Origin: Pegea sp. RAD2-039
Lineage: Eukaryota; Chordata; Thaliacea; Salpida; Salpidae
Assembly: GCA_034620365.1 (NCBI GenBank)
Contig: JAQGEQ010000379.1
Coordinates: 124,001 to 188,000 of the forward strand
Direction: 5' to 3'
DNA: 64,000 nucleotides
Positions 1-40,065 of the stretch are shown in pieces (position 1 is the stretch's first letter; each line of letters begins with the position of its first letter). Under the pieces are notes generated by a model. That model was given only the letters and a program-made list of their open reading frames with translations, was not told the origin of the DNA and did no database searches. Made by a program: the position numbers and the translations under genes.

Positions 1-950
1 TTTATAATTTTCTGTTTGTTAACGCAACAAGGAAAAAAATTCCCGTTTGTGAAACCAAAATACATAGAAAGTAAGCTCACAAAAATTTTGATATCATGAA
101 CAATTAAATCAAAAGACTTTACAAAAAGATTCCCTGTTAGAAATGTGACAATTAAATGAGCACAGACACCCATAAAAAGATATATAAAAGTAGTAATAGT
201 AGCTGATCTAATCGCTAGTTTAAGTTTATCAGACTTTTTTAGGTTGTTAAATCTTTTTAGGGATTGTCTACGCATAACAACGGTTCGACGTCTGTGAGTT
301 TTTAGAGGATATATAAAGAGACAAAAGAGAACAATTTGTGAGATATAGCTCAAACAGAATCCAATATGTAAGACTACATTCCTAGAATCAAAACTCGGGT
401 TTTTCCCGCATCCAAATTTAGTTAAGTGAAAACTGTTTAAGTTAAAATCAGTTATGATAATACACGTGGCACCAACATGCAATCCAATAAAAACAAGCCA
501 ACTACAAAACTGAAATAAGTAGGTGTTTAAAAAAGACCAAGAAGTACTTCTGTAGATTATACGTTGTCGAAGCCAAAAAACGTTATTCATAATTAAAATG
601 CAGATTATATCAAACGTAAAAGCAAAATCAACCAATATTTCACAAGATATCTTAGTGAATATATCATACTGAATTAGAATACTCATTAAAATTGTAATTT
701 GAGTAATCACTAAACGAATAAAGAAGATATATGGAGAAGTAAGAGCTAAAACCCACAGCATTTTATAATCAATATGGCAATTGTTTCTTAATCTATTCAA
801 TTTTCTTCTTGAATATTTGGGAATAACAACCATAAACCAAACTGTACATGTTAGTAGTACCGTGGTAATTATTTGTGGAATAATCCAATGAAATTCTTCG
901 TCAAAACCTGTTTTTGTTTCATTATTTCTCTTCTCAAATGAAAAATTCAT
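1..950 (-). CDS. Seven-helix receptor-like protein, copy A (C-terminus cut by window edge)
   Basis: An uninterrupted frame runs from an ATG at 950 down to base 1, about 316 codons, so the protein is nearly complete and only the stop lies outside. It has about seven hydrophobic segments and an Asn-rich, probably extracellular N-terminus. It shares landmarks with the genes at 3244, 6980, 36992 and 39127: a Cys at the start of helix 3 (KISCEI), a Cys in the loop after helix 4 (KFGCGK), FCLFIYPL at the end of helix 5, and LKKSDKLKLAIRSATI before helix 6. The GIGELL motif of the other copies is replaced by a basic RRQSLKRFNN stretch, and the helix 3 motif is also diverged (FWLRQRIIY). No intron is visible. 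Seven-helix receptor function is inferred; ligand and family name are unknown. This is the most divergent member together with the one at 39127. Confidence 0.75.
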   Translation of the reverse strand, partial: MNFSFEKRNNETKTGFDEEFHWIIPQIITTVLLTCTVWFMVVIPKYSRRKLNRLRNNCHIDYKMLWVLALTSPYIFFIRLVITQITILMSILIQYDIFTKISCEILVDFAFTFDIICILIMNNVFWLRQRIIYRSTSWSFLNTYLFQFCSWLVFIGLHVGATCIIITDFNLNSFHLTKFGCGKNPSFDSRNVVLHIGFCLSYISQIVLFCLFIYPLKTHRRRTVVMRRQSLKRFNNLKKSDKLKLAIRSATITTFIYLFMGVCAHLIVTFLTGNLFVKSFDLIVHDIKIFVSLLSMYFGFTNGNFFPCCVNKQKII

Positions 951-2898
951 ATTCTGTAAATTCTGCAAGATAAAAAAGTTTTTTTTTTAATCTTTAAAAC
1001 ATTTGAATATCGTTTAAAAACAACTATTTAAATTTTGTTTAGAAAAATAAGAACATGAAATATACTATTTAAATAATATTATTTATAAACCAATTAATAC
1101 TTGAAAAACGTATTTAATATTTAATAATAATAATAGTTTCAATTAAATTTTTGGTCTGATAAACTACTAGATATTAAAATCAAAAAAATAAAACTTTTTA
1201 TTTAAGTAAAAATTTATAAATTTTCATCATATATTTTGTTAAAAGTAAATTGTTTTCTTTAAAGCATGATAAAAGGAATGATTAAAGTTTCATCTTTTAT
1301 TCAAAAGTTAAAATATCTTTTAAAACTTAAAATTTTAAAATCTAATGATACTTGATTATACAAAAATAAACATTTTTTAAACCTCAAAAAAGTTTTAAAA
1401 AGTTATAAGACAATTAAAACAATTTACTAAACTTTTTTCTTATAGAAAATGACTTTAAAACCTCTTTGAAAATCTTTTTTATATCTTTATCATCTCAAAT
1501 ATTTTGCCTTAATGTCACTTTATTTATGTCAAGTTCAGTATTTTATAATTAACAACTAAAATTATTTCTGATGAAAATTGTAAAGCAACTTTTAAAAAAT
1601 AAATCATTCAAAATTTGAAAAATCTAAAAAGTTTATTTTATTAAAAACTAGTTTTGGTTGTAAACCTTCAAAAACTAAAAATTAAAAATGTTGTTTTGAA
1701 AAATCTAATACAAAACATGAAAGTCAAAACAAATCTTAAACTGAAAAAAAGAAAATTAAAAAATGTTTTTAATTTCAAATAGTGTTTTATTGTTTAGAAA
1801 GAGTTATTTAAAAATAATTAAAACAAATGAAATAACAAAAATGCTTATAACATATAGTACTTCAGCTTTAACATTTTTGTTGTTATAAATCTTTATTAAA
1901 ATTAAGGTTTGTTGTAATGATGCAGATAAACAAATAAATGATATTTAAGTTATATTTAGATTTAAACACCTATAAAAGGCTAAAGAGTTAATTTTATGGT
2001 TACAAAGTTTAACTTCTAAATAATTGTTTGATTTAAAAAACCGAAACTTAAGAATCAAAGATTTTTTTTCTGTAATTACCTAAAAAGTTTCAAATTAAGT
2101 TTTTTAATTATCTAGAGTTTTGAAAAAAACAATTTGGTTGATTTCTTTTAAAACTACTTTTTATCTACTAAGTTTTTTAGGACTTGCTGTTGTCAATTTC
2201 TAAATTTCAATCACTAAAATTTCAAAACTTTCTGTTTTTCAGAGGGATTTGAATCCTTAAATAAATAATTTAAAGATACCTTTTTACCTAAAACAAAAAG
2301 ATACTTCTAAACAACAACAAGAAGTTTCAAATAAATCTTCAATAACAGAATTCTCACTAAGTCTTTTAAACATCTTAATAATCTTAAAACAACTGAAGTA
2401 GTTTTCTACTTTAAAATTTATAAAATATCAAAAGTATTATAAAAAGTGAATTATGATAAACTGTTAAGTAAAAAAAAATAGAAAAAATAGATATAATAAA
2501 CAATGATTAGATACTTATTTATTTACAAAAGTTCTTATAAAGGCCAATTATTATTATTATCAAACAAATTTATATAATATATATTTAGAAATATATAAAC
2601 ATTTTTATACTATATTATAAGTATTTAAATATTGATATTTAAAATTGCTATGTTAAAAAAATCTTTTATAGACTGTTAGCAAAAATGTAATAATATGGAA
2701 AACTGATTTATTAATTAATAGATTTATTAGATTGAATTAAGAGAGTTGAAAATAGTAGTGTCTTTGAAATTATTTTATTCAAGATGTTAAATTTTAGCTT
2801 AATTTCATGTACAAATGTTGTTTGCGTTTTTAAGTTACAAGTCAGTTTTCTAACTTTTGATACTTTTTCTAAATAATTTAATAAAACAAAAATAGTTA
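951..2898. other. AT-rich intergenic sequence
   Basis: Very AT-rich with homopolymer runs and stops in all frames. I see no coding exon, RNA gene or ordered repeat. It separates receptor copies A and B and may hold the promoter of copy A. Confidence 0.6.
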
Positions 2899-2953
2899 CT
2901 TATTTATTATAATAAATGCGAAGGAGGGTGCCTCCCGCTAACACACATTCTAA
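2899..2953 (-). mobile_element. LINE 3' tail fragment (solo)
   Basis: A short stretch matches those at 9138-9213 and 48240-48310: an ATTTATT-rich end, the core AATGCGAAGGAGGGTGCC, then CGCTAACACACATTCT. At 48240 the same sequence lies just beyond LINE ORF2 on the minus strand, so this is probably the 3' end of a LINE inserted in minus orientation and truncated at its 5' end. Compared with the other two copies it lacks the AAAGAGAGCAC part of a short hairpin. Confidence 0.6.
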
Positions 2954-3243
2954 CAGTTACCATCTAAAATAACAACAAATCGAATGTTTTTCATTTATTG
3001 AAAATTATCTCAGTAACAATTGGTTATTGAAAGCAGAAAAATGTTCGAAGTATCTTCAATCTATAAAATATTTTTAGAAGTTTGAAGAAAAGTATTTTAT
3101 AATGAAAATAAGAATATCTTTGAAAATTTTTTTTTCTAAATTAAAAGAGTTTGAAATACTTATCTTATAATAAGAATAAGATATAAATAATTATTATATA
3201 TAGAAAAGAAACCTTATTTAAATTATTAATATTTATTTTACAT

Positions 3244-4194
3244 TTAAGGTAAGCAACATTTATTACCTCTTTTAAAACATCTAAAAGTTTTTTTAAAACC
3301 ATTAAACGATAATAAGATCGAAATACAATTGATGAACAGACTGATATTAAATATCAAAGTTTCTACTGTTTTAACTACACCAGCATGTAAAATAAATCGA
3401 GTAATTATTACTGCTACTAAAAAGGAAGTCAAACAGATCGACATAATAATAGTAGCAGTACGAATTGTATGTTTTTGCTTGTCTGATTTCCTCAAAAGCT
3501 CCCCAATTCCAAAGCTTGCTCTAATAGCTTGATTTAAGTTGTTCAAAACACATAATGGGTAGATATACAAAGAAAATAAGATTACATAAGAAGCAACAAA
3601 CATAATTGTAGATGAATAGAACCAGCCACCAGGTGCTTTTGTCTCGTTAAAAATACAACCAGCCTCAGATATACCATAAGATCTAAATTTAACTACATCG
3701 ATACTTGCTAATACTCCACTTATATTAAACAAAATTGGAAAGGAATAAGAGAAAAATTTCCATGTGCATGTCTTCAAATGCATGAGTGTTGGTTCAGAAT
3801 AAAGTAGAGTCTGTTTAAACCAAAGAAAAATAATTGAAGAAGACATTGAAAATTCACAGAGTAAGCTTGTGATTACAGATGCAATATGACATCTTATATG
3901 ACCAGTGTCATTAACTAAACTAAAATAACCAACTAAACCAAGACTGATGCAACTTATAAGACGAAGACAAGCAACAACTGGTACAGTAATTGCAAAAACA
4001 ATTTCAGAACGATTTATGGTTTTTCTCAACTGATCTTTCTGCTGTGAAACTATTTTGAAGCAATATTGACAAAACCAAAACAATACAATAGCTGTTAAGA
4101 TTAATAAAATAGCATTTACAGACTCGACGAAAAACCGAAACTTATTTCCACCTTCAAACGATGTTTGATTTTCAAAGTTTGTAAAATTTTCCAT
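3244..4194 (-). CDS. Seven-helix receptor-like protein, copy B (intact, single exon)
   Basis: A 316-aa frame without introns. The N-terminus carries two N-glycosylation sequons (NFT, NQT). Hydrophobic segments lie at roughly residues 22-46, 64-94, 105-133, 147-170, 192-216, 247-270 and 283-303. Receptor-like landmarks are a Cys at the head of helix 3 (HIRCHI) and a Cys in the second extracellular loop (AGCIFNE), the pair that forms the classic GPCR disulfide. After helix 3 comes FLWFKQTLLYSEPTLMHLKT; helix 5 ends in LYIYPL; the loop before helix 6 reads FGIGELLRKSDKQKHTIR. There is no DRY or NPxxY motif, so it is not an ordinary rhodopsin-class receptor. An AATAAA lies on the coding strand just past the stop (3232-3237). 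Best reference member for the family in this window. Function unknown; sensory or peptide receptor is possible but unproven. Confidence 0.85.
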   Translation of the reverse strand: MENFTNFENQTSFEGGNKFRFFVESVNAILLILTAIVLFWFCQYCFKIVSQQKDQLRKTINRSEIVFAITVPVVACLRLISCISLGLVGYFSLVNDTGHIRCHIASVITSLLCEFSMSSSIIFLWFKQTLLYSEPTLMHLKTCTWKFFSYSFPILFNISGVLASIDVVKFRSYGISEAGCIFNETKAPGGWFYSSTIMFVASYVILFSLYIYPLCVLNNLNQAIRASFGIGELLRKSDKQKHTIRTATIIMSICLTSFLVAVIITRFILHAGVVKTVETLIFNISLFINCISILLSFNGFKKTFRCFKRGNKCCLP

Positions 4195-6979: not shown

Positions 6980-7962
6980 TCATGCAAAAAATAAACTTTC
7001 TTCATTTTCAACATCATTATTTGTTGGTTTTGGAACACAAAGAAAAGTTCTTTTAAAGAATTTAAACGAACACAGAATCGAAACAACATTTACAAAAAAG
7101 CTTAAATCATAAAAAATATTTTCTGTTGACTTCAGAGCATTACTCGGTAAAAGAATTCTACTTATACCTGCTATTAACATACTTGAAAAGATACAAACAG
7201 ACATGCTTATAGTTGCAGATCTCATCAAAGTCTTCAACTGGTCAGATTTCTTCAGTAATTCACCAATTCCATATTCATTTCTTACAGATTCATGAAGCTT
7301 AGCTTGAATGTGTAACGGATAAATATACAAACAAACTAACAAAACATGCGAAATTAAAAACGATCCAATTATTGTTCCAAAGAAAGGGTCTATCATCTTA
7401 AATTTAACAAGGATACAACCATGAGGTGATGCAGTATAGCTGTTGACTAGAAAAACATTTATTGCAACCAAAACTAAAGTTGTATGATGAAGAAACAGAA
7501 TCAGTTGTGATAAAAACTTATATAAACGTGTTCGCAGGTGACTCAAAGTGGATCAGAGTACATTAGATATTGTCGATACCAAAGAAACGAGTACAAAGGT
7601 ATCCACAGGGCTACACTGAAAAGAGAACCAGCATCACAAGCATGTTCACAGGCGAAGCTTTCCAAATATCCAGTTGAAGTTAGTATTCCAACAACAATAG
7701 TTGCTAGTGAACTTAATAATCTCAAAGATAAAATTGTTGGAAGAACAAGTGATGAAATTATCATAATATTTTGTCTGCTCTTTTGCGGGTGATTAATTTT
7801 CTTTCGATAGATTATAAAAGAAGATAGAAGCTTCAATGTTAGAACCAGTAAACTTAAAGTTGAAACTAAAGCAGCTATCACCTTAGGTTGAATTGGAAAG
7901 TTAAAACTTGACGTTGGAATAACTGTTCCATTTGCAATGGTTCTGCTTGTTTTATTTTCCAT
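6980..7962 (-). pseudogene. Seven-helix receptor-like gene, copy C, with a one-base frameshift
   Basis: Two adjoining minus-strand frames, 7962-7543 (139 aa) and 7546-6980 (188 aa), together match the whole length of copy B. The first carries the N-glycosylated start, helices 1-3 and FLWYRQYLMYSDP; the second picks up at LSHLRTRLYKF and holds helices 4-7, LYIYPL and YGIGELLKKSDQLK. The break falls inside the conserved YSxPTLxHLxT motif near 7543, where one base has been lost relative to the other copies, so the Thr codon is incomplete and a TGA follows. Both halves are otherwise well preserved, with the paired cysteines in ACEHAC and HGCILV. The loss is therefore recent, polymorphic, or a sequencing error in a non-homopolymer context. 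Confidence 0.8.
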
Positions 7963-12017: not shown

Positions 12018-13181
12018 TTAGAAATATTTTGAAGACATTTTTTCATAAACTTCTTCACTGGGATAACTTGCAGCATCATGTTTGTTTTCTCTACACTCTT
12101 TGTTGCTTGTCGAACCTCCTGAAACAGCGGAAAAAGAGGACATCTCTGCATATTCATCTTCCATAATCTCCTTTGGTACTTGATATATTTCTTCATCTTC
12201 ATATCTAGGACAGCATCTTGGAACCTCATAAATTGAAGAGCTCTGAATATGATGACTTTTCTTTAGCTCTTTTGGCATATGCGTTAATGACACTGCAGTC
12301 CGTGGTCTAGGCATCCTTTTAGACTTAATTTTTGGGACCTTTGCAATTTTTATTCTTTTTAATGATACTTTATTTACAACACAATTTTCATAAACTACAG
12401 AGTTAATTTCTTCTTCATGTTCATCTACTTGTGACTTAACGCTGCTGAAATTACTTTCTACGTATGTTGAAGTTCGCGGCAGATTATTATTAAAACTCCT
12501 TTTCAGATTTGGTTGTAATTGTTCATTGAAACGGGTTTGATTACTTATTTCTTCATCAATTATATGATCTGAGGACTTATCAGCTATCAATAAATCTTTA
12601 GATTTTTTAGATGATGTTTTTCTACATTTTATCCCAGACAAGATTCCAATAAATGCTAAAAATACCACCAAGAACAAAGCAGCAAATAAAACTGTGCCAA
12701 TCTTCCAAAAGTTAGTCTGATTTTCACAACTAACTTCCAAGGAATCTTTCAAACAGATAAATGACTCTTCTTTTAACTCACTATTACATCCAAACAGAAG
12801 TTGGCTTGATGGGAATAAACTAACTCTTCCTTTTTCTTTTAAGACTTCATCCCATTCCAAATCATTAATATCTAACTCAACACTTTTTACAGTGCCACAC
12901 TTATTTGTGACCACTGGGGCAACTGTCCAGCTGGACACACTTCTTTTGATGAAAGATTCATCTTGACCCAGACAATCTATTAAAAGCTTAGAAACTTCCT
13001 GAACCAAATCCTTAGTTTTAAGTTCAATCAAACTCGCATTATTTGCAGCACAATGTTTAAAAGAATCCTTTAAATTCATTTTCTCATCCACAACTAAAAT
13101 ATCTCCAACAGAAGTTGAAAATTCAAAGCCACAGCTGCTTGTATTAGCTGGTATTGAGATATTATTCATTATGTATACCAT
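12018..13181 (-). CDS. Type I membrane protein: C-type-lectin-like ectodomain and tyrosine-motif tail
   Basis: The visible frame gives 387 aa. Residues about 17-152 hold seven cysteines in a layout like a C-type lectin fold: SFKHCAANNASLIEL (helix-type segment), SSWTVAPVVTNKCG, then FGC and FICL near the end. Sequons such as NQT at 155 support an extracellular side. A transmembrane helix spans about 161-184, followed by a basic stop-transfer (KCRKTSSKKSK). The 200-residue cytoplasmic tail has tyrosines in SH2-ligand contexts: Y264 in VYENC (YxN, Grb2-type), Y318 in IYEVP and Y333 in IYQVP (YxxP, Crk-type), Y344 in YAEM and Y379 in YEKM (YxxM, PI3-kinase p85-type), plus a proline/basic stretch (RMPRPRT). 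No signal peptide is present, so an upstream exon is probably missing; an in-frame stop lies just before this ATG. Likely a surface recognition receptor signalling by tyrosine phosphorylation (inference). Confidence 0.75.
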   Translation of the reverse strand: MVYIMNNISIPANTSSCGFEFSTSVGDILVVDEKMNLKDSFKHCAANNASLIELKTKDLVQEVSKLLIDCLGQDESFIKRSVSSWTVAPVVTNKCGTVKSVELDINDLEWDEVLKEKGRVSLFPSSQLLFGCNSELKEESFICLKDSLEVSCENQTNFWKIGTVLFAALFLVVFLAFIGILSGIKCRKTSSKKSKDLLIADKSSDHIIDEEISNQTRFNEQLQPNLKRSFNNNLPRTSTYVESNFSSVKSQVDEHEEEINSVVYENCVVNKVSLKRIKIAKVPKIKSKRMPRPRTAVSLTHMPKELKKSHHIQSSSIYEVPRCCPRYEDEEIYQVPKEIMEDEYAEMSSFSAVSGGSTSNKECRENKHDAASYPSEEVYEKMSSKYF

Positions 13182-15310
13182 AAGTTATATGATTTATAAA
13201 GCTGAAACACTGTTAAAATGTAATCAATTATATTTGTGTAATTTTATATATGTTATGAAATATTAAATATTGAATTTAAATATTAAAATTTAAATCTTAA
13301 ATTTCACTGATTAGATTTTATTGTGATAGTTTTAATTAAACTTATTACTAATACGTTATGAATAAGCTTCATTGGTAACATTATTAAAATTTCAATAAAA
13401 TAAGAAATTGTTTAATTGTTGTGCTAATAATTAAAAAACAGTTATATATACATAATTTTTCTCAATTATTGCTTGAATAACTCTTAACAAAAAACTCTTA
13501 TGGTAAACTGAAAAATTAACTGTGAACTAAAATATAGACGAATAAAAGATTTTTCAAAATTCTAAGTTTTTAAAAAGAATTGAAAAAAAAATTAAAAGCA
13601 AATTATTTTTGAATACAAGATCTTTTTTATCGTAGAAAATAAATAAGGCCATAGTTTAAAATATTATTAGAAATGCATAAACAAACAATTTATATGTAAA
13701 ATAATAAAGTTACACAAAAGTCATGTTTAATCTACTTTTATCTAAAATCAGAAAATCGCAAATATTTCAAAAAAACTTTAATTTTCTTTATTTACATCTA
13801 CTTAAATATTATAGATATAATTGAAATTTTATTAATAAAGCATTGTATCCATGAAAAGTTGAAGAAATATGAAATTTACAAACTTTTAATTTACCCCTGT
13901 GATTGCTTGTTTAATACTGAGCACTGTGTAAACCATATACTGTAGTAATAACTCAAATAGTTACATTAACTAAATACTATTAGACGAAATATCTCTGTAG
14001 CAATTTTTTAAGCAACAAAATTGCAATGAAAAGCTAACTTTAAAACTAGATTTAGAAAAATAGAAGATATTAATTTTAGATTGTTACAAAACTTAAGCAC
14101 TATAAACTTTTAAAAATAGAAATATAAGCCTTTTGCTTTTAAGTTAAATATTATGCAACGCTTGATTATAATTATAAACATTTATAAAACAACTTATTGT
14201 GTTTAGAAATCAAAAAATCACGAGAAAGAAAAACCAGACCTTTATTTAATGTTTTATAGATACAAAATCATAAATAAGAATACTAAATCGTTTTAGATAG
14301 TCAAGAACAATAAATTCACTAGTTTATTAATAAAATATTTTTGATATTAGTATAATAATTATCGACTATGATCATTATAATAACATGATAAAATAAACTC
14401 ATCCAAAGTTAAAAACTATAACAAATGAATTTTTAGGTAGAAGAGATTTTACTTTATTAAAGTGATATAAGTGTTTGTAAAAACATTTGAAATGAATGAG
14501 ACACGCTGGATAATTGTACAGAGTTCATTACTAGAAACTACAACTCAAAATTAGAAATACTAACTTGTACATTTTTGCAATAATATGAAAGATATAGAAG
14601 TGTAAAAAAAATTTATTTTTAATAATAAGTTTTGTTTTTCCAGCTAAGTAAAAAGTATCTAGTTTTAAAGTAGTGTTTTGTTGGACTTTGAGACTATTAT
14701 AAGTTATGTATACTTTTAATTAATATAAAATGATGCTTGTAATCCCCAATCTATTTTAATTACTAGCAAAATTTACATTATGATACTTTAAAACTAACTG
14801 CAAAAGAGAAAATAAAAGTTAAATAAGCTTTACACAGTATAAAACAGAAGCAATTTGTAGAATAAAAATGATCGAAAAAATCTTTGTTGAGAGCATTAGA
14901 ATTAAAGTTCTTTTTCTTTCAAATTCCGGTAATAAGTAATATAATATAAAATTTTATATTAATTTTTATGATGTCCAAGAGGTTCATAAGGTTTAGAATT
15001 ATATAAAAACTTCTATGAGTAGACCTAGGTCCGTAAGAAGCTTTAATTCTTATCTGATTAAATTAGCTTCTTCTGAAATGATTCTTAAGTAAGTAGTCAG
15101 AAAGAGTTAAAAAGCTCTCTAAAAAGCTTTTCAGGTTCAAATTTCAAGATAATTTTAAAACGAAACCATTTCAATCGAAACGCCATAATAGTCATGTCAT
15201 CAATTTCAAACTTTAACTTGACCAAATGATACAAAATCAGTGAGATACTTTGAAGTCAATCTCAATTATCGTTTAATTGCTAAAAATAAACCCTAAGTCA
15301 TCTGGTTTTG
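13182..15310. other. AT-rich intergenic sequence
   Basis: Nothing convincing. The signal-peptide exon expected for the lectin-like gene at 12018-13181 should lie in this interval, but I could not pick it out. Confidence 0.5.
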
Positions 15311-21400: not shown

Positions 21401-22331
21401 TCTGATATCTTCCATCTCTTCTTATGAAGATCCAAGCATGACTTCATCTTCTAATTTTTCTGATCTTCAAACTCTCTAACAACTTGTCTCAGAGTTACAT
21501 CAGTTCATTCTGATATCTTCCCATCTCTTCTTATGAAGATCCAAGCATGACTTCATCTTCTAATTATTCTGATCTTCAAACTTTCTAACAACTTGTCTCA
21601 GAGTTACATCACTTCATTCTGATATCTTCCATCTCTTCTTATGAAGATGCAAACATGACTTCATCTTCATATTATTCTGATCTTCAAACTTTCTAACAAC
21701 CTTTCTCAGAGTTACATCAGTTCATTCTGATATCTTCCATCTCTTCTTATAAAGATTCAAATATGACTTCATCTTCATATTATTCTGATCTTCAAACTTT
21801 CTAACAACCTTTCTCAGAGTTACATCAGTTCATTCTGATGTCTTCCCATCTCTTCTTATGAAGATGCAAACATGACTTCATCTTCTTATTGTTCTGATCT
21901 TCAAACTCTCTAACAACTTGTCTCAGAGTTACATCAGTTCATTCTGATATCTTCCATCTCTTCTTATGAAGATCCAAACATGACTTCATCTTCTAATTAT
22001 TCTGATCTTCAAACTCTCTAACAACTTGTCTCAGAGTTACATCAGTTCATTCTGATGTCTTCCATCTCTTCTTATGAAGATCCAAACATGACTTCATCTT
22101 CTAATTATTCTGATCTTCAAACTCTCTAACAACTTGTCTCAGAGTTACATCAGTTCATTCTGATATCTTCCCATCTCTTCTTATGAAGATGCAAACATGG
22201 CTTCATCTTCAAATTATTCTGATCTTCAAACTCTCTAACAACTTGTCTCAGAGTTACATCTGTTCATTCTGATATCTTCCCATCTCTTCTTTTAAAAATT
22301 CAAACATGACTTCATCTTCAAATCTTTCTGA
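18497..22331. repeat. 108-109-bp satellite array, about 35 copies
   Basis: A direct tandem repeat with starts at 18510, 18618, 18726 and 18835, giving periods of 108, 108 and 109. Each unit contains GACTTCATCTTCTAATTATT, GATCTTCAAACTCTCTAACA, and CAGAGTTACATCAGTTCATT, then a variable TCTTCCCATCTCTTCTTATG part with the palindromic GAAGATC. Units differ by a few percent. A variant with TTCAGACATGTGTTTATC recurs near 19800, 20127, 20668 and 20995, at spacings of 3, 5 and 3 units, so there is higher-order structure. The 108-bp length is a whole number of codons, but stops occur in every frame of the consensus, so it is not a protein-coding repeat now. It runs directly into the leucine-rich-repeat fragment at 22425. 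Confidence 0.95.
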
Positions 22332-22424
22332 TATAATCTCTTCCTACTCATCAACATTCCTGCTACATCTCCTGCAAAATCTTTCAACAAAATCCAAACC
22401 TCTCTAATCTTTAATATCTTACAG

Positions 22425-25270: not shown

Positions 25271-25292
25271 ATGATTTAAACACACATAAATG

Positions 25293-26396
25293 TTAAAATG
25301 CGTCAACAGCATCAACAGAATCAATTTGTTCATTCCGTAAATTAATTCTATAAAATATTTTCTGCTGATTCTTTTTAACCAACTCCATAACAACATATTC
25401 TGTTTCCTTAAAAAGATGAACAGCGGTTACATCAACTTCAGTATAAAACCACTTAGAGACAGGAAGTTGATTAATATAAGCACAAAATGGTATATAATTT
25501 GATAAAAGTTTGCTCATAGTATCAACAATCACCGGTTTATCGGCATCCTGCTCACAAAACTTTGGAAGCTTGAATAAATTAACAAGTCCATCAGAATAAA
25601 CAGCTGCTACTATTTCACAATCAGAACTAATAGCAAGTGTATTAATCGCTCCTCCAACATAAGAACTCCTAAACTCACAGAAGAGTTTTCCGGTTGAAGC
25701 AAAAAATACTCGAATAACAGTTCCACGTTCAGAAGCAGTAGCAATCATATCACTGTTTGAATCACCACAAATAGCCACCACTTTATGCTTATGGGCTTCA
25801 AGTACCATACGAATATTCATACTCTTCAAATCAAATACTTCTAGATGCCCACAGTTACAATGATATCCATAAGTCACTAATAGTTTCTGTTTTTCTAGAA
25901 AGCAAATAGTTCCGTTTTTATCATGCATTTGACTCATATATTTCAAGGATTCATCCTTTGATCTCTCATACATTCTAAAATTATCTTCTGTAATCAATGT
26001 AATGCGGGTATCAGTTGCTGTTACTTTAATATACGGAAGATAGTCATAAAGATTGAGAGGATCCATACTTGTATTCATCATTACAAGAAAACCATCTGAT
26101 TCTGAACCAACTACAATCAACATGGACTTTTCAATGTCCGAATTTTCTCTATGACTCAGCAGCATTTTTGTGGCACACCATTTAGTGAGAGACTTAATCT
26201 GTTCTTCATCCTTTAAATTAGATTTTTCCTTCATATATAGATCAGTAATTGACTGGAGAGCAATTATTTGTACTTTGTCAAAATTCATTGGAGATATCAT
26301 CATATCCATTCTATTTAAACCTTTGAATTTGTCTACAGTAGCAATATACTTCTTGTTTTGAGACAAGAATTGAGAAGTTTCCTTAACTAGAGACAT
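25293..26396 (-). CDS. PROPPIN-family WD40 protein (WIPI/WDR45/Atg18-like), intronless
   Basis: The frame encodes 367 aa from the ATG at 26396. The middle matches the PROPPIN signature: LEAHKHKVVAICGDSNSDMI, then ATASERGTVIRVFFASTGKL, then FCEFRSSYVGGAINTLAISS and the following blade (AVYSDGLVNLFKL). In PROPPINs this region carries FRRG, whose arginines bind PI3P and PI(3,5)P2 at autophagic and endosomal membranes. Here it reads FRSS, so both the second Arg and the Gly are lost and lipid binding is probably weakened. Size fits a WDR45-like protein of about 360 aa. Absence of introns in a genome of split genes suggests an old retrocopy; the frame is intact over its whole length, so it is likely under constraint. 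Its 5' end and upstream region form one arm of an inverted duplication (see 26185-27277). Confidence 0.75.
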   Translation of the reverse strand: MSLVKETSQFLSQNKKYIATVDKFKGLNRMDMMISPMNFDKVQIIALQSITDLYMKEKSNLKDEEQIKSLTKWCATKMLLSHRENSDIEKSMLIVVGSESDGFLVMMNTSMDPLNLYDYLPYIKVTATDTRITLITEDNFRMYERSKDESLKYMSQMHDKNGTICFLEKQKLLVTYGYHCNCGHLEVFDLKSMNIRMVLEAHKHKVVAICGDSNSDMIATASERGTVIRVFFASTGKLFCEFRSSYVGGAINTLAISSDCEIVAAVYSDGLVNLFKLPKFCEQDADKPVIVDTMSKLLSNYIPFCAYINQLPVSKWFYTEVDVTAVHLFKETEYVVMELVKKNQQKIFYRINLRNEQIDSVDAVDAF

Positions 26397-27277
26397 TATC
26401 AACTTATATCAAATTTGTAAACCTAAAAAGTATTTAAAAAGTTATTTGTCTTTAAAATTTAACTGAATTTTTAATTTTATTTGAAGTAGATTTAAAGAAT
26501 CTTTAAATATAAGTATAAAAGATTTCTGAGTAAAATAATAAACCTCTAAAAATATTTAATTTAGATAAAAGATTAATAATATTTATCATAAATAAAAAGA
26601 TCACCAAAAATATCAGCTTAAAGTTTCATGATGGATTCATAAGATGAATATCCATAAAAACTACATTTGATTCAATAGAATATTGTCTATTTTAGTTATA
26701 AAAAATAATACTAAGTTTACTTTTTACAATTACAGAAAAAAATAAAAAAATAAATAAAATTTAGAACAATTTTAACGAAATTTACTTTTTCCAAATAATT
26801 ATAAACTAAAGAATAATTTAATACAAAAAACATCCACACAAATGATAACAACTTTATATAAATGTTTAAAATTATCAAAGTAACTAAGAAAATTAGGACG
26901 AAAAAACAGATTACAAAACTTTTATTAATAATGAAAGGAGAAATATATGAAAAAGTTCAAAAATATTACCATAAATATTCAAAAACAATATAATTGTTAC
27001 TAACATATTTACAATTAAAAATAAATCTTGTTCTTTTAAAGATAAAATTTTCATAACATAGTTTTATTTAAGAACAACTTTTATAATAAATATTGTTCAA
27101 TGCAAAATTTAGTCTGTAAAGAAATAGTTTTATAACTAATTGCTGATTATTATTATTATCTTCTATAGAATAAAATAAAAGATTAGAAATTAGTTTAAAT
27201 TATAACTATCAAGTATAATTATAGAAAATAAAAGATAAAAAATATGAACAAATAAATTAATGACTTCAAATTAATAA
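26185..27277. repeat. Left arm of a 1.1-kb inverted duplication
   Basis: The reverse complement of this segment reappears at 34596-35652 with high identity. It spans the first about 70 codons of the PROPPIN gene and about 880 bp upstream of its ATG. The outer limit is set by the shared GAACAGATTAAGTCTCTCAC, the inner limit by ATTAATTTGAAGTC. The arms are 7.3 kb apart. The right arm is about 36 bp shorter, which is accounted for by a deletion after codon 13. Confidence 0.9.
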
Positions 27278-29612: not shown

Positions 29613-30248
29613 CTATGCCATCTCAACAGATTCATCTTCTAATCTTTTTTTAGAGTCTGCTTCATTTTCTGTTGGATTGGAGACTTCAGTTGTTCTTGTA
29701 GTTCTTGGAAATGCTGGTGGGTTTCGAAAATCAAGCATTCTTTGATACCATCTACTAGATACAATGAAGTATATATTCATAAGTATCATCAAAAGTATAA
29801 CAACTACCAACATTGAAAAAAATAAAGAATAACTTTCAGTTTTATCTTCGGCTGGAAACGGTAAAAATCCACTGCATAATTTATTTACGTGTTTATCATC
29901 AGCAAAACTATAAAGTCGACGTTCCAACACTTTCAGATAAGCAACACTACCATCCAATTGACAATTAGGTCTGAAGTCTTCATGAAATAATTGATCATGT
30001 TTTTCAGGTACATAAGCCTCACCATTAGACCATGTACAATTTCCATTATCAATCTTTAAACCAACTTGCCACCATTCGTTTCTAGAATCAACCATGTCAT
30101 GAGTTTCAGCTATTAAAATTGAAGTATCCTCAACCAAATCTTCAGTGTTGAGTGGTGACAAAAGTAATCCATAACTTTCACATTTGTCATACCATTCCAT
30201 CATACGAGGAAGGTTTCCATCTGGTTCCATTTTACGAGAATTTCTTAT
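29613..30248 (-). CDS. C-type-lectin-like type I membrane protein, last exon
   Basis: The exon starts after a strong acceptor (TATTTTTTCCAG) at 30248 and ends in a stop at 29613. Its lectin-like part has WYDKCESYGLLLSPLNTED, VDSRNEWWQVGLKIDNGNC, TWSNGEAY and two later cysteines (RPNCQLDG, NKLCSGF). The WWxVGL...CTWSNG pattern matches the core of C-type lectin domains; the calcium-binding EPN/QPD and WND motifs are not visible, so sugar binding is doubtful. A transmembrane helix follows (SYSLFFSMLVVVILLMILMN) and a short cytoplasmic tail with PPAFPRTTRTT and many acidic residues; no tyrosine signalling motif is seen after the helix. The signal peptide and the start of the domain lie on an upstream exon that I did not find. 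An ATG inside the exon is unlikely to be the true start. Confidence 0.7.
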   Translation of the reverse strand: MRNSRKMEPDGNLPRMMEWYDKCESYGLLLSPLNTEDLVEDTSILIAETHDMVDSRNEWWQVGLKIDNGNCTWSNGEAYVPEKHDQLFHEDFRPNCQLDGSVAYLKVLERRLYSFADDKHVNKLCSGFLPFPAEDKTESYSLFFSMLVVVILLMILMNIYFIVSSRWYQRMLDFRNPPAFPRTTRTTEVSNPTENEADSKKRLEDESVEMA

Positions 30249-30879
30249 CTGGAAAAAATAGGCATCAATTTTAAGCATCAAAACTTCGAAATATAAATCG
30301 TCAATCGATTAAACATTTATATTACTGATTAATTAGGCTTCATTAAAGTCAAAAATATACAAAAGCCAATCTGAAGTAAACACATAATCAACGTCTATAT
30401 GGAATAATGTAAGTACAACACTCAGTGTTGAAACATGAAAGAAAAATTCAAAAACACAACAATCTCAAAATAAAATATTTTAAAATTCCAAAGTCCATGT
30501 TATTGTATTTATAGAAAAATCGTAATTTATTGTTGTTGGCTTGTAATCAAAAAAACTTATCTATGAAGCATAGACTTGTGTGTTTAGTTTCTGCTTAATT
30601 TGTACAAAATCATTTTAAAGTTTTTTTAGTGATTTCGTAAACAAAGAATTGTATAAAATATTATCTTTTTTCTAACAACCTTTGATAAAAGTTTAAATTT
30701 TGTAAAGAAGGTTTAAGAAAAAGAATTAAGTTATTTCATTCTATAGATTTATGGATAAAAAGAAATAAACAAGAATTTTATATTAAACACGATTTGAATA
30801 AATTGTTTTTTCTTAAATAAGTTTTGTAATAGGGAAAACCCCGAACAACTCTTAGTGAATAGTAGTGGTTCCAATAGCT
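30249..30879. other. AT-rich sequence upstream of the lectin-like exon
   Basis: Probably intron and promoter of the 29613 gene. No exon could be assigned. Confidence 0.45.
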
Positions 30880-31626
30880 GACATCTTAGAATCCAGCCCA
30901 CAAATTCTGAATTTATAAATTTCTCACGTCAACCATCTTTACATTTCCTAAACCAACATTCCATTAATAAATTTATTATTCCGCAGATATATTCAGTCCG
31001 AGACTTTGGCATTACCCTGTCATCTGACTTTAAATGGCGCAACTATGTTTCTAAAATCTTTGCAAAATCAGTCAACTTTGTCTACCTTATCATAATAACC
31101 TTTAGATCTAAGGACTCATAACTCTGTATCAATCTTATCAAATTGTACTTACGTCCAATTCTTGAATACAATATCAATGTATGAATGCCATATTAAGTTG
31201 GTGATATCAAAAAATCGAATCTGTTCAGGCGACATTCACGAGATTAGTATGCAGGAAACTTAATATTAAATACGATAGTTATAAACATCGTTTCAGCTTC
31301 TTCAATTTAGATACTTTACAATTACCACAAATTAAATACAATTTAATTCTTATTTTTTAAATTATTCACAATTTAATTGACCTTCAGTTTGACGATTTTT
31401 TTTCTATTAGTTCTTCCCATAAGTTATATCAACTCAGACGAAACACATTACACTTTAATAAGCCCATATCACCAGTTACATTAATCGGAGCAATTTTTCC
31501 CTCATACCGCCCAATTAGTACATGGAACCAGCTGCCATCAGACATTATCATGTCAGAATCACTCGCGTTGTTCAAGCAGAAGTTGAACCGTTATAATATT
31601 GCCAACATTGTCATTTCTAAACTGTG
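30880..31626 (+). mobile_element. LINE ORF2 C-terminal remnant (CR1/L2/Jockey type)
   Basis: Reading the plus strand and allowing one-base indels and stops, the family landmarks appear in order: RDFGITLSSDFKWRNYVSKI, then KLYLRPILEYN, the DIKKIESVQ-type segment, YKHRFSFFNLDTLQLPQIK, and finally YRPISTWNQLPSDIIMSESL followed by KQKLNRYN and a TGA at 31624. This is the characteristic C-terminal tail of non-LTR reverse transcriptases. The 5' part of the element and the short 3' tail seen at 48240 are missing. Non-functional. Confidence 0.8.
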
Positions 31627-31971
31627 ATTTTATCCTTTTTTATACTATTAATATTCTATGTAATTATTAATTAACTGTATGGGAACTACTGAACGGACAT
31701 GTTTTATATATTTTTCATTTAATATTTTTATCATAATTATATACTATAGTTATTATTTTTTAGCATGCTTTGGTTTATTTTTCTCAGAAATTACAAAAAC
31801 TGATTACCAGTCTCCACCCAAACAACTTAGGCTCACAGGGTGATGCAAATACAGTTATTAAAGGTGAATAAGACAAGAAACACTTCAAATAAATATTAAA
31901 TCAAACAAACATTGAACAACTTTTTTCAAACGTTGTAAGAATAGTCATAAGAACTAATTGTATCACTTGCT

Positions 31972-33353: not shown

Positions 33354-33641
33354 CAATTTTATGCAAATAAGTTCAGATTTATCACGAGGTCGGATCAGAT
33401 AATTGGTGGCTGAAAGTTGATACAGTAAGCGACCCGGTAAACAAGCAAAGATGATCAGAACTATATTAGGTTTTACATCAACTTTGTCGTTGGGAAAAGC
33501 GTATAACTGTGCCTCTATTTTTCGTACAAAGTATACAAAGAAACCTTTAATCACACAATACAAAATTATTGCTTTCAGATAAATGATATTTATATTTTGC
33601 AATTTAATAAAAGTTTTACAAAATCATTTCGGCAAAGTATA

Positions 33642-33760: not shown

Positions 33761-34595
33761 GTAAGTTGAAAAAAGTTTCGGAAAATTTCAATTCATCAGT
33801 CTCATCTTTTAACTAAAATAATTAAATTGATTAAGAAGATCTCAGGTAAATGTTGAACAATTCGTTTAATTACTTTATTTTCTTTCGTTTACTTGTCAGT
33901 GATCTGTAAGTCTTCCCGGATTGCTTCTTTCAATTTTTTCACATTAACTTTCGAGAAATGTTTGTTAAAGTTCAAACTAAAATGATTAATCTGAAAAATG
34001 ATAAAGTTTAAGATGTTGTCAACAGAAGATGAAAATTCTGAACACCTTTTGGGGTTCTTCAACTAAATGATCGCTCTTAATCATATGTTGATGATCTTCC
34101 TCATAAAAATTGATAGTATGATCAACCATATTAGAATCAAACTTACATCCTGAGGTTTGTGAGTCATCTACATCCAGATCAACATCTCATTTCAGACTGA
34201 GTCATCCTTCAAAAAGTCTTATTATGATTTCAGCAGTAAAAGATCTGTGAAGATCAAGTCATTTCGAGATCAACAATTACTTAAGAAGATTTTCTTTCAT
34301 AATTGTAGATCTTTCAATTTGTATCAGAGATTTTTTACCATCGACAAATTGATTTATGTAAGCTAATTGTTTGTGAAAGAGTTTCTATGTTTTTATGATA
34401 TTTATTTGAAATATTAACTCCAGTCACTACCAGTTCTTTTTACGAGTTAGTTTTTATAAATTTGTTTTATCTGAAACAGAAAAAGATTATTCAAATTATA
34501 AACAAATTCTTTGCAGTTTCAATCTTACTACAAATTGAAAGTTACATTTACAAAGTGTTTAATTACATTACAACTTGCTACAACTTGCTACAACT
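33761..34595. other. Intergenic or intronic sequence
   Basis: No exon seen. Rich in ATCTTC/GAAGATC-type words like the satellite at 18.5-22.3 kb, but not tandem. Confidence 0.45.
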
Positions 34596-35652
34596 TTATT
34601 AATTTGAAGTCATTAATTTATTTGTTCATATTTTTTATCTTTTATTTTCTATAATTATACTTGATAGTTATAATTTAAACTAATTTCTAATCTTTTATTT
34701 TATTCTATAGAAGATAATAATAATAATCAGCAATTAGTTATAAAACTATTTCTTTACAGACTAAATTTTGCATTGAACAATATTTATTATAAAAGTTGTT
34801 CTTAAATAAAATTATGTTATGAAAAAGTTATCTTTAAAAGTACAAGATTTGTTTTTAATTGTAAATATGTTAGTAACAATTATATTGTTTTTGAATACTT
34901 ATGGTAATATTTTTCAACTTTTTCATATATTTCTACTTTCATTATTAATAAAAGTTTTGTAATCTGTTTTTTTCGTCCTAATTTTCTTAGTTACTTTGAT
35001 AATTTTAAACATTTATATAAAGTTGGTATCATTTGTGTGGATGTTTTTTGTATTAAATTATTCTTTAGTTTATAATTATTTGGAAAAAGTACATTTCGTT
35101 AAAATTGTTCTAAATTTTATTTATTTTTTTTATTGTTTTTTTGTAATTGTAAAAAGTAAACTTAATATTATTTTTTATAACTAAAATAGACAATATTCTA
35201 TTGAATCAAATGTAGTTTTTATGGATATTCATCTTATAAATCCATCATGAAACTTTAAGCTGATATTTTTGGTGATCTTTTTATTTATGATAAATATTAT
35301 TAAACTTTTATCTAAATTAAATATTTTTAGAGGTTTATTATTTTACTCTGAAATCTTTTATACTTATATTTAAAGATTCTTTAAATCTACTTCAAATAAA
35401 ATTAAAAATTCAGTTAAATTTTTAAGACAAATAACTTTTTAAATACTTTTTAGGTTTACAAATTTGATATAAGTTGATAATGTCTCTAGTTAAGGAAACT
35501 TCTCAATTCTTATCACAATACAAATAATTGGAAATGATGATGTCTCCAATGAATTTTGACAAAGTACAAATAATTGCTCTCCAGTCAATTACTGATCTAT
35601 ATATGAAGGAAAAGTCTAGTCTGAAGGATGAAGAACAGATTAAGTCTCTCAC
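34596..35652. repeat. Right arm of the inverted duplication
   Basis: Inverted copy of 26185-27277, including the upstream region and the first about 70 codons of the PROPPIN gene. The junctions are sharp: homology starts at TTATTAATTTGAAGTC and ends at AAGTCTCTCAC. Confidence 0.9.
35480..35652 (+). pseudogene. Truncated copy of the PROPPIN gene 5' end
   Basis: From ATG at 35480 the sequence reads MSLVKETSQFLSQ as in the intact gene at 26396, then a TAA. A deletion of about 36 bp removes the codons for KKYIATVDKFKG and neighbours. The match resumes with MSPMNFDKVQIIALQSITDL and ends abruptly at codon about 72. It cannot make a functional protein. It still carries the whole duplicated upstream region, so it might be transcribed. 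Confidence 0.9.
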
Positions 35653-36877: not shown

Positions 36878-36926
36878 TAAATCGATAATAAAGTTATAAA
36901 TCGATAATAAAGTTATAAATCGATAA
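36878..36926. repeat. 19-bp tandem repeat, about 2.6 copies
   Basis: AAATCGATAATAAAGTTAT is repeated in tandem just beyond the 3' end of the receptor gene at 36992. Confidence 0.85.
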
Positions 36927-36991
36927 TGTTCAGAAACATCAATAATATATGAAAAAGTAAGAAGGTTCAAAAAGAAGTTTAAAAACTTATT

Positions 36992-37897
36992 TTATTTACA
37001 TTTAATAAACTTTACTAAAAACTTCTTAAACTTTTTGAACGATAGAAGAAGCATCATGACATTTGTAAAAGTTCCAATATCATAAAACATATTAAATATG
37101 CATTCAAGAGTTCCAAATGGAAGAATAAATTCATCAATAACCAACATAGTGACATAAGAAAGCAAACAGAAGAAGTTAGTAAAGGTTGTGACATATATGG
37201 TCCGTTGATCCTTCGCAGCGCGTCTCAAGAGGTTTCCGATTCCAAATTGCTTTAGATCAGCTTTAAATCTATTTTCAGTAAACAGAGGGTACAAGTAGAG
37301 AATTGTTAGTGCAATATGAGACGTAAATAACATTCCTAAAGCCGCCCAATGTATTGAAGAATGTTTTTGTCGTTCCTTAATACAGTTATCATGAGAAAGC
37401 TCGACCTGAGTAACAACTATACTATCCATAACTAACAAGATATCACCAGCAACGAAAATATTGAAAAAGACCAGTTTTGTCAATCTTAGTACACGAGTGT
37501 TGAGATGCTTTAAAGTTGGACCGCTATAAAGATATTTAAGACGATACCATAAAAAGAGATAGACAGGAAAGAAGCTTATAGCAACCATAATCGAAGAAGT
37601 ATCTAGTAAGGTTTGACCTAATGGTTTAAACTTTTCAGTATGAGATCTCATCAGGCAGACTATGATGGAGGACTGGTTCACCAACAAACGAATCAGTAAA
37701 CAGATAAGCATACTAACTGCAAGCACAACTAAGTATTTAGAATTCTTTAAAGTTTTCCATTCTTTTAACAAGTAAATAACAAACAAGAAGTAAGTGGCAA
37801 CTGTTATAAATAGTTGTATAGCAGTTGCTATTTGAGGCAAAACCCATATTAGGGATAAGTCATCAGTTTGATTAGACAAATTACTTGTATTTGTCAT
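36992..37897 (-). CDS. Seven-helix receptor-like protein, copy D (intact, single exon)
   Basis: A 301-aa frame without introns. N-terminal sequons (NTS, NLS, NQT) precede helix 1 (TAIQLFITVATYFLFVIYLL). Family landmarks: FLWYRLKYLYSGPTLKHLNT after helix 3, LYLYPL at the end of helix 5, FGIGNLLRRAAKDQRTIY before helix 6, and MMLLLSFKKFKKFL at the C-terminus. The second-loop Cys (HDNCIK) is present. The helix 3 Cys is shifted (CLMRSHT), so the disulfide may differ. The Lys-Ser-Asp of KSD is replaced by Ala-Ala-Lys. Same strand as copies A-C and E. Unknown ligand. Confidence 0.85.
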   Translation of the reverse strand: MTNTSNLSNQTDDLSLIWVLPQIATAIQLFITVATYFLFVIYLLKEWKTLKNSKYLVVLAVSMLICLLIRLLVNQSSIIVCLMRSHTEKFKPLGQTLLDTSSIMVAISFFPVYLFLWYRLKYLYSGPTLKHLNTRVLRLTKLVFFNIFVAGDILLVMDSIVVTQVELSHDNCIKERQKHSSIHWAALGMLFTSHIALTILYLYPLFTENRFKADLKQFGIGNLLRRAAKDQRTIYVTTFTNFFCLLSYVTMLVIDEFILPFGTLECIFNMFYDIGTFTNVMMLLLSFKKFKKFLVKFIKCK

Positions 37898-39126
37898 CGC
37901 TCTATTAAACCAGCTAACGTTTATTTCAAAAAGAAATTATCTTCGCTTCGTACCTTTAAAAAACAGAAAAATTATTTTACATATATAATAAACTAAGACT
38001 ACAATAATTTTTCTAAAATATTTGGCTTCATTGAACATAATAATTTATAAAATAAACTCCTATAAGTAATTAAAGCGTAAAAAATAGATTCGAACACCTG
38101 GCTGGCAAATAAAAAAAGACTAAATTAAGTTTGAATAAATTCTGTCAAAAAAGGTTAGTGTTTGAAAAAAATTAAATATTAACATAAAAGATAAATATTA
38201 ATAAAAGAAATATAAAAATAATAAAACTCAACTTTAAGTTATGTTATTAATTTTAATCAAAAATTATTTTGCTTGTAAATGTTTATATACTGATAAATAC
38301 TTCTATTTCTATCAATGCTGAATTCTTATATATATGAGAAATTGTATAAAACTAGATTTTATTTCTAAAACTACAATAATAAATTGAAAATTAAACAATT
38401 GACAAAAAATGCGATATCATAATTCTAATTTTTACACAACGTTTTTGGTATAAGTTCTAATTCTTTTTTTTATTAAACAATTATAAACACTTGCCTTGTG
38501 CAGCATAAAGACACTAAAATTTTTATTTATATTTTTGTAAATATAAATTCATCTTTTTATTTATAGCCGTTATTTGTCTTTTGTAAACAATATCTTAGTA
38601 TCTAAATAATTTTAGATACTTTTTACCAATTTAAGAAAAAACAAGAATTGATTGATAAACTTTAAGTTAATTAATATAAAGTTATAAATAGAGAAAAGTA
38701 TTTCACATAATAACGTTTTAGCTAATCTGAAAAATTTCATGTGTATTAAACTTTAAACAATGATAAGAATAACAAATTTTTTAAATTCAAATTTTAAATA
38801 AAATATTCTTTATAAACTAAATATACAAAAAGCTCGTAGATATTATTAAAACTTTATTTAAATCTAAAAATTTTTTCTTGTAAAGTAAAACATAAAACTT
38901 CATATAAATGTTTTAATCAAGAAAATTGTATGAAATCATGTGAAAATAACGAATATATAAAAGTGTTGAAAATATATCGAAAATGACTACACTAAATAAA
39001 ACTCAGAGATATATTACAACCATTTTTAAGAACCAGAAAAACTTGAATGTAGAAATCAGAAACGCTTTAGAATAAACCAAAGCCAACAGAAGCAGTTACA
39101 ATAAAGTTAGATGTAAAATCAAAGAA
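37898..39126. other. AT-rich spacer between receptor genes D and E
   Basis: No gene, RNA or repeat recognised. Confidence 0.55.
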
Positions 39127-40065
39127 TTAAGAAAACATTCTATCAAAGTAATAAGTTTGGGGTGGCAGAGGAGGGCTGCTTTTGCAATTAAATCGGAAAC
39201 CTGGAAGCGATCTCATGATACAAATGATGTAGACTAAGATACTTGTATTATACATCATATGACTAAGAATGCGAGGTAAAGGTTTAGGGAAGAGATACTC
39301 ACAAATGACAAAGGTAATGGAGTAAAATATCAAGCTAACAGTTAAGGTTATAAAAGCATCTTTAATGTTAGTATGTAGTTCATCAGTTTTTTTAATCAAT
39401 TCGCCAATTCCATAAGTTTCTTGTGTATTCATTTTAACAAGTTTAAGTTGATACAAAGTGTAAGCATATAAAGCATACAGCAAAATATTAGATGCAATGA
39501 ATAAACAAGTTGAAGTAAGAAATACAGAATCTGGTTTAGATCCAGAAGTCCAAACACAACCATACGGCATCATTAAAAATTCATTCGTCAAAAATCTTGC
39601 CGTTGCAAAGAGCAGAATGGCTCCACTGATTAAGATGATGTACAAGACATTACACAATTTAAAGAAGAGATTATTTAAATGTTTTAATATTGGCTCACGA
39701 AAAATCAAACTTAGTTGATAATAGAGAAAAACAAAGACTGGGATACCAGTTACTGTTAGCAACACAGTATTTAAATCAATCATCACCTCACATGCAAAAT
39801 CGCCTTGATGCTGTTCTCTAAAGATCTGATAGAGAAAGAACAGGACCTGATTGAAGACAAGGAAGATTGAAAAAGCAGAAATAGTGACACTAAAAATCCG
39901 GCTTAAAATTCTTCTTCTAGAATCCCCTTTTCCAGCCTTCTTATAATAGTAGAATGATACAATTACCCAGATCATTACAGAAAAATGTATCACTTGAACA
40001 ACTTGCGGTATGATCCAGACATGCTCCACAGATGTAGAAGTTTTTTCTTTACTTGAGTCGCTCAT
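39127..40065 (-). CDS. Seven-helix receptor-like protein, copy E (intact, single exon)
   Basis: A 312-aa frame without introns. It has seven hydrophobic segments, the paired extracellular cysteines (DFACEVM before helix 3, PYGCVWT in loop 2), FLYYQLSLIFREPILKHLNN after helix 3, LYAYTL at the end of helix 5, and YGIGELIKKTDELHTNIK before helix 6. The C-terminus ends in a proline-rich SSPPLPPQTYYF tail that copies B-D lack. N-terminus is Ser/Thr rich (MSDSSKEKTSTSVEHVW) and has no sequon, unlike copies B and D. Unknown ligand. Confidence 0.85.
   Translation of the reverse strand: MSDSSKEKTSTSVEHVWIIPQVVQVIHFSVMIWVIVSFYYYKKAGKGDSRRRILSRIFSVTISAFSIFLVFNQVLFFLYQIFREQHQGDFACEVMIDLNTVLLTVTGIPVFVFLYYQLSLIFREPILKHLNNLFFKLCNVLYIILISGAILLFATARFLTNEFLMMPYGCVWTSGSKPDSVFLTSTCLFIASNILLYALYAYTLYQLKLVKMNTQETYGIGELIKKTDELHTNIKDAFITLTVSLIFYSITFVICEYLFPKPLPRILSHMMYNTSILVYIICIMRSLPGFRFNCKSSPPLPPQTYYFDRMFS

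Follow-up and report, generated by a model that had tools for sequence, protein, structure and literature searches.

The closest described system to the genes analysed here is a tunicate-specific family of seven-transmembrane (7TM) proteins that includes KH.C3.516 (Cirobu.g00005701) of Ciona, for which Johnson, Razy-Krajka and Stolfi (2020, PMC7397655) suggested a chemosensory role. In the available portions of that paper the family gives no BLAST hits outside tunicates and its phylogeny is left unresolved, and a green fluorescent protein (GFP) fusion of KH.C3.516 is enriched at the exposed apical tips of papilla cells. Here we describe a family of 7TM receptor-like genes in the salp Pegea sp. 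RAD2-039, five members of which (A to E) lie in one stretch of 64,000 nucleotides (C22:124001-188000, hereafter the window); the genome searched comprises 105.7 Mb on 387 contigs. Like the family of Johnson et al., it consists of 7TM proteins with many members and tandem neighbours. Compared in this way, by description and not by sequence, the two are probably the same family, and its restriction to tunicates is as reported in the accessible part of PMC7397655.

Other chemoreceptor types are reported to be missing from tunicates. Among the G-protein-coupled receptors (GPCRs) of Ciona, Kamesh et al. (2008, PMC2396169) found no homologues of nematode, insect or yeast chemosensory receptors in the available part of their article, which also describes Ciona-specific 'other rhodopsins'. 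Two reviews, of 2020 (PMC7776563) and 2024 (PMC10963430), state in the sections available that tunicates have no olfactory receptor orthologues, and one of them adds insect and nematode chemoreceptors to the absent types. From the same portions of PMC7776563 and PMC2396169, the reported absences cover orthologues of odorant receptors, V1R, V2R and the insect and nematode chemoreceptors. No description of the family's fold, signature or class was found in the literature searched, which was mostly without subscription papers and preprints. The family has very likely been glimpsed in print already; what is added below is its map, its signature, the models and a set of corrections to the original prediction.

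We read the family as a large, mostly intron-free tunicate set of cell-surface 7TM receptors, most likely highly derived rhodopsin-like GPCRs that serve chemosensing, and give this reading a probability of about one half. The chemosensory role and the mode of action are inferred.

Five window genes and a genome-wide family

The five window members are:

1..950, minus strand: member A, intron-free 7TM gene; open reading frame (ORF) 3-986, ATG at 950
3244..4194, minus strand: member B, intact 7TM gene of 316 amino acids; the first protein modelled with AlphaFold
6980..7962, minus strand: member C, 7TM gene with a broken frame; N-terminal part 7543-7962, C-terminal part 6980-7552
36992..37897, minus strand: member D, open 7TM gene; ORF 36992-37936, ATG at 37897
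39127..40065, minus strand: member E, open, divergent 7TM gene; ORF 39127-40116, ATG at 40065

The original prediction had placed five genes on one strand here, and the ORF listing bears out the coordinates and the common strand, which is the minus strand. It had also called them intronless. A, B, D and E are single frames; that of A is complete in the genome, where it extends about 45 bases beyond the window start and encodes 344 amino acids. Member C, however, is split by a frameshift near 7543-7552, is not a single ORF and is either a pseudogene or an assembly error. The proposed common order of motifs is likewise only partly sustained. Gly replaces the Cys before helix 3 in D, which the other window members have; A carries VFWLRQRIIYRSTSWSFL and has no GIGELL; E has YTL in place of YPL and RSLPGFR in place of LLSFxxFKK. 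The order as a whole is not common to all five. At the position of the helix 3 arginine, E has Gln and B has Lys.

Identity to B is 20-38% for the other window members or pieces of them. Searched against the genome, B gives 53 matches including itself, the best non-self match at E 8e-109. Judged by such matches, homology among the family members is far above chance, and the five window genes are genuine members of a genome-wide family. With B, L018, L037, L060 and L064 as single-protein queries, the family was found at at least 64 places on 34 contigs; 33 of these places have another member within 50 kb, and 59 sit on contigs other than that of the window. Matches no more than 1200 bases apart were merged, except for one neighbour pair on C6 that was separated by hand. 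The count is a lower bound that takes in fragments and broken copies (copies with stops on C342/C379 and C125, pieces on C380 and C14) and may contain uncollapsed duplicates.

The 63 loci examined yielded 56 ORFs (55 distinct) in which a single open frame spans 80% or more of the family profile. They include four distant members, L085-L088, which match the profile of our main alignment (A3), built without them, with full-sequence E values of 1.3e-19 to 4.9e-33; in the same small search the best E among 18 class A receptors of the genome is 0.014. In L060 the third inner loop is long and the end of the gene lies in a second frame downstream, which fits an intron; L066 was found in three pieces. 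Intron-bearing relatives therefore probably exist within a family that appears to be mostly intron-free.

Alignment A3 holds 48 sequences, and 45 of its 47 other rows are 14-25% identical to B. Out of L009-L038 it omits L009, L012, L017 and L020 (window B, C, D and E) and the near copies L027, L031 and L033; out of L041-L069 it omits L044, L052, L060, L062, L066, L068 and L069, which are partial, in pieces or broken. In a second alignment (A2), member A was entered as 42-926 only. A further one (A5) has 48 rows with L018 first, the distant L085-L088 included and near copies removed.

A quick tree was computed from 49 rows, the 48 of A3 and member C, with support from the Shimodaira-Hasegawa-like approximate likelihood ratio test (SH-aLRT) and no bootstrap. 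B, C, D, E and a pair on C107 form one clade (SH-aLRT 97). Member A falls in a separate 11-row clade with genes on C113, C125, C114, C36, C8 and C283 (SH-aLRT 96), and the branches of A, D and E are long. Since A stands in a different clade from B-E, the five members are not one simple tandem array. The earlier suggestion of a cluster that was split or expanded twice agrees with the grouping of D and E with B and C, but not with the position of A or with the 59 places on other contigs.

The ratio of nonsynonymous to synonymous substitution rates (dN/dS) is 0.12-0.64 among the listed pairs with more than 40% identity, which indicates that most compared copies are under purifying selection. The one exception is L010/L011, with a dN/dS of 1.52 at a dS of 0.025 and changes mainly in the first half; this pattern could reflect gene conversion. 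Divergence by region was measured on 11 hand-picked paralogue pairs. Inner loop 2 is the least divergent (0.13), followed by helices 3 and 7 (0.17); the N-terminus and helix 4 reach 0.30, and inner loop 3 and the C-terminus are the most divergent (0.35). In the 500 bases upstream of 44 members, the excess of GATA-like words is small (TGATAA 35 against 21.8 expected); many words were counted and the figures are uncorrected, and this result is not used.

Conserved residues and predicted fold

Conserved residues were counted in the 55 full-length family proteins, in the numbering of B. Cys102 is kept in 54, the remaining one being the Gly of window member D, and Cys180 in all 55, so that the two extracellular cysteines of the original prediction stand except for the first one in D. 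Residue 127 is Arg in 50 proteins, Lys in four (including B) and Gln in one (E). Also conserved are Pro213 (52), Trp125 (51), Phe297 (48), Tyr212 (42) and Asn289 (37). Residue 127 follows Cys102 at a distance of 25 in 54 proteins and of 26 in one; in class A numbering Cys3.25 and Arg3.50 lie 25 apart. Residue 127 is mostly preceded by Leu, Tyr or Phe and followed by Gln or Asn, where DRY has Asp or Glu and Tyr. In the class A receptors of the same genome, a Cys stands 25 residues before the DRY-like Arg in seven of 18 (L001-L004, L079, L082 and L083).

At the other end of the protein, residues 300 and 301 stand 11 and 12 positions after Asn289; the first is aromatic (Phe, Tyr or Trp) in 41 of the 55 and the second basic in 40. 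F8.50 and R8.51 stand likewise after N7.49 in class A. An Asn followed by ten residues, an aromatic and a basic residue is found in 23 sequences versus 3.8 in shuffles. Helix 6 has CxxS where class A has CWxP (Cys in 34, Ser in 35), and in helix 7 Asn289 is accompanied by hydrophobic residues at the Pro and Tyr places of NPxxY. No conserved Schiff-base Lys like that of opsins and microbial rhodopsins was found in columns 276-297 of helix 7, the commonest Lys occurring in four of the 55 sequences. DRY, CWxP and NPxxY, which had been called missing, are indeed missing as letters, but an Arg or Lys occupies the 3.50-like place in 54 of 55 and an Asn the 7.49-like place in 37. A functional helix 3 arginine seems to be retained inside LWxRQ.

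When two segments interrupted by one or two columns are counted as continuous, the 48-sequence alignment shows seven hydrophobic segments. The fraction of Lys and Arg is 0.30, 0.19 and 0.23 in inner loops 1-3 and 0.17 in the C-terminus, compared with 0.09 in the N-terminus, 0.06 in outer loop 1 and 0.13 in outer loop 2; outer loop 3 is too short for a value. A sequon for N-glycosylation lies ahead of helix 1 in 44 of the 48, and since several rows start upstream of the first Met, some of these may precede the true start. From these features a seven-helix topology with the N-terminus outside is predicted.

AlphaFold2 models were obtained for B (predicted local distance difference test score, pLDDT, 85.4; predicted template modelling score, pTM, 0.82) and for L018 (pLDDT 87.3, pTM 0.85). 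Both have seven long helices, a short hairpin in loop 2 and a helix 8. The seven-helix bundle that the original prediction had expected is present in both predicted structures, with GPCR anatomy.

The models were compared with the PDB by Foldseek, and the class of each match was assigned by reading its title. For B there are 1079 matches at E<=10, 11 of them at E<=0.001, with the endothelin B receptor as the best (1.3e-4); 49 of the best 50 of the 1079 are class A and one is GABA-B. The 1170 matches of L018 at E<=10 include 46 class A receptors among the best 50, the others being TAS2R14, GPR158, CaSR and PTH1R. The longest alignments among the matches listed by VIA-align are those with GPCR chains, which reach 273 residues for B and 270 for L018. 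In BFVD, the three matches at E<=0.001 are giant-virus proteins named GPCR family 1, and no kinship is claimed. As modelled, the fold is a GPCR-like seven-helix bundle; on its class, the Foldseek ranking and the VIA-align Z scores given below disagree.

Placement among receptor classes and competing readings

Placement by sequence was attempted with several profile collections. In the scans for which cut-offs were displayed, which covered the window members and divergent members, no Pfam family came above its cut-off, nor did any odorant-receptor or nematode chemoreceptor model. The Pfam tallies for 24 and 48 members carry no cut-offs, and the latter spreads over at least 25 families. Among the 24, weak matches occur in one member each to STE3 (E 5e-4), Srv (0.0085) and 7tm_1 (0.01); among the 48, STE3 (E 5e-4) and 7tm_1 (E 0.01) recur in one member each. 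The NCBIfam scan of the family gave weak scattered matches only, and L086 against PDB sequences gave nothing below E 0.4. A profile of A2 searched against PDB sequences returned two designed helical proteins (best E 0.0006) and an RND transporter, which give no placement. The family had been described as one that cannot be placed in a known class, and the Pfam, NCBIfam, PDB-sequence and hhalign comparisons indeed brought no strong profile match to a described class. Together with the predicted seven-helix fold, this supports a receptor-like family that is unplaceable by sequence.

The likeness to class A (Pfam 7tm_1) lies in the 7TM fold with helix 8, the loop-2 hairpin, Cys3.25 with its partner Cys in loop 2, the Arg or Lys 25 residues after Cys3.25, and the Asn and aromatic residue at 7.49/8.50-like spacing. 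In contrast, a significant profile match is absent and the DRY context, CWxP and NPxxY are lost; in their place the family has LWxRQ and, where helix 5 ends on the inner side, a Tyr-Pro pair. The odorant receptors of vertebrates and amphioxus and the serpentine chemoreceptors of nematodes are lineage-expanded, often single-exon or clustered GPCR repertoires. The present family is likewise expanded and clustered, by analogy, and its only nematode match is that to Srv in one of the 24 members.

If the family consists of derived rhodopsin-like chemoreceptors, ligands would enter the helical pocket beneath a loop-2 cap held by a Cys102-Cys180 disulfide. On activation, helices 5 and 6 would open at their inner ends, and residue 127, perhaps together with Tyr212, would act as the switch. 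For contact with the G protein, residue 127 and inner loop 2 with its conserved LWxRQxxLYxxPxLKHL are the candidates, and sensory cells might use the family members to detect water-borne or substrate cues, as has been suggested for Ciona KH.C3.516.

Several results weigh against this reading. Extracellular parts diverge no faster than intracellular ones (0.267 against 0.276 in the 11 pairs), which does not favour diversifying selection by ligands. A crude count of hydropathy peaks per sequence arrives at seven for only 18 of the 48 sequences, at six for 24, at five for five and at eight for one, so hydropathy alone is not decisive. The 25-residue spacing at the DRY-like Arg is missing in the other 11 of the 18 class A receptors of the genome. 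An hhalign comparison of the family with these 18 receptors scores 32.9, and with two class A subsets 21.8 and 22.3. The controls score 20.8-28.9 for reversed profiles with the family, 36.7 for class A with its own reversal and 159.2 for the class A subsets with each other. Against these receptors the family thus does not rise above the reversed controls. In the alignment that scores 32.9, the Cys preceding helix 3 and LW(F/Y)(K/R)Q do line up with the class A Cys and DRY region, which taken alone is not significant. For L018 no Foldseek match reaches 0.001 (best 1.1e-3), and the class A majority in Foldseek is partly a base-rate effect because class A dominates solved GPCR structures.

The VIA-align Z scores point the same way. 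For B the highest are those of CryoR2 (16.9), Ste2 (7ad3; 16.8, over 257 residues at 4.1 Å), GABA-B and GPR156 (16.0 each) and TAS2R14 (15.9), and the top class A receptor is GPR55 (15.6). For L018 they are Ste2 (18.4, over 260 residues at 4.0 Å), CryoR2 (17.6) and bacteriorhodopsin (17.4), with A2A as the top class A receptor (17.2). Class D Ste2 is therefore the top GPCR by Z in both models, 1.2 above the best class A match, and microbial rhodopsins score as high as Ste2.

The alternative that survives best keeps the fold and changes the ligand. The receptors would bind internal ligands (peptides, chemokine-like factors or lipids) on blood cells or in development, and immunity or signalling, not sensing, would have driven their expansion. 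Peptide and chemokine receptors are frequent among the top Foldseek matches of B, and in the available text of PMC7397655 the authors name, as an alternative for KH.C3.516, a response to the transmitter of neighbouring neurons. Deep divergence and dispersed small groups, however, would resemble a chemoreceptor repertoire more than peptide receptors, and we hold internal ligands to be possible, though clearly the less probable option.

Slightly more doubtful is a bolder form of the chemosensory reading, in which these genes are the chemoreceptor repertoire that tunicates had seemed to lack. The family would have replaced the lost vertebrate-type odorant receptors and would stand as a separate GPCR class, marked by a particular activation signature, namely LWxRQ at the end of helix 3 and Tyr-Pro at the inner end of helix 5 without CWxP or NPxxY.

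It is unlikely, on the evidence at hand, that the family stands outside the vertebrate classes as a separate GPCR lineage, with fungal Ste2/Ste3 (class D) perhaps the nearest type. The Z ranking of Ste2 in both models, the STE3 profile match in one of 24 members and the absent class A profile match would fit such an origin. But Foldseek, which weighs local structure and sequence, returns mostly class A, with no Ste2 among the best 50 matches of either model; identity to Ste2 is 9-10%; and the STE3 match is weak, single and one among many scattered ones. The arginine spacing and the loop-2 Cys pair also point to class A, and Z tracks kinship poorly here because microbial rhodopsins score like Ste2.

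Quite improbable, finally, is a seven-helix membrane protein that is GPCR-like by arrangement only (a channel, a transporter or a microbial-rhodopsin-like protein), for which the high Z of microbial rhodopsins (16.9 and 17.6) and the lack of any Pfam family past a displayed cut-off could speak, but which sits badly with the lack of a conserved helix 7 Lys, the Cys pair before helix 3 and in outer loop 2, the Arg or Lys at 3.50 spacing, the loop-2 hairpin, helix 8 and the length of the GPCR alignments.

Surroundings and significance

Other features of the window are:

12018-13184, minus strand: frame of 388 amino acids with one likely membrane span and the cytoplasmic Tyr motifs VVYENC, SIYEVP, EIYQVP and EVYEKM; by eye like an immune-type signalling receptor, without a match in Pfam and PDB searches
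18500-22332: satellite-like tandem array between C and D; 109-base unit, 35 copies, 93% matches
25293-26408: single-frame PROPPIN (WIPI/Atg18-like; Pfam E 9e-11, PDB Atg18 E 6e-12), possibly a retrocopy
26717-26956 and 34963-35184: near-identical translated stretch on opposite strands about 8 kb apart, hence an inverted repeat pair
29613-30308, minus strand: frame of 231 amino acids with one likely membrane span; by eye possibly the end of another lectin-like receptor, with no Pfam match above cut-off
30882-31627: two open frames that by eye resemble the end of a non-LTR (long terminal repeat) reverse transcriptase
41301-41373 and 42617-42689, minus strand: two transfer RNA genes
45051-45482: low-complexity array of 13-base and 116-base units, which yields long overlapping CHCP-rich frames
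51721-54766: second tandem array; 113-base unit, 27 copies, 94% matches

Elsewhere in the genome, L070-L078 (on C12, C103, C21, C58, C23 and C209) are a second set of single-frame receptors, which pass the 7tm_1 cut-off; L072, L073 and L074 are nearly identical copies on different contigs. By their profile matches they are another expanded rhodopsin-like group. A 16-base sequence that we take to be the spliced leader of Ciona occurs, followed by GTA, at 47 places, and the backwards pattern at none; 33 of the 47 are on contig C4, in an array with units about 199 bases apart (G000:C4:1135044-1142220). COX1 was not found in the assembly. One exon scores 27.5 bits for GH6, barely above the curated cut-off of 27; tunicate GH6 genes are the subject of PMC7464555, according to its available part. 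Together, the leader array and this marginal match make a tunicate of Ciona-like type the most likely host.

Tunicates are the sister group of vertebrates and, in the available sections of two reviews (PMC7776563, PMC10963430), are reported to lack orthologues of the odorant receptors of vertebrates. The mapped family, with its signature, 55 distinct full-length frames and a modelled fold, is a list of candidates for expression and ligand tests. If the family does consist of highly derived rhodopsin-like receptors, it would show how far a GPCR can shed the canonical microswitches and yet keep the Cys pair and the helix 3 arginine.

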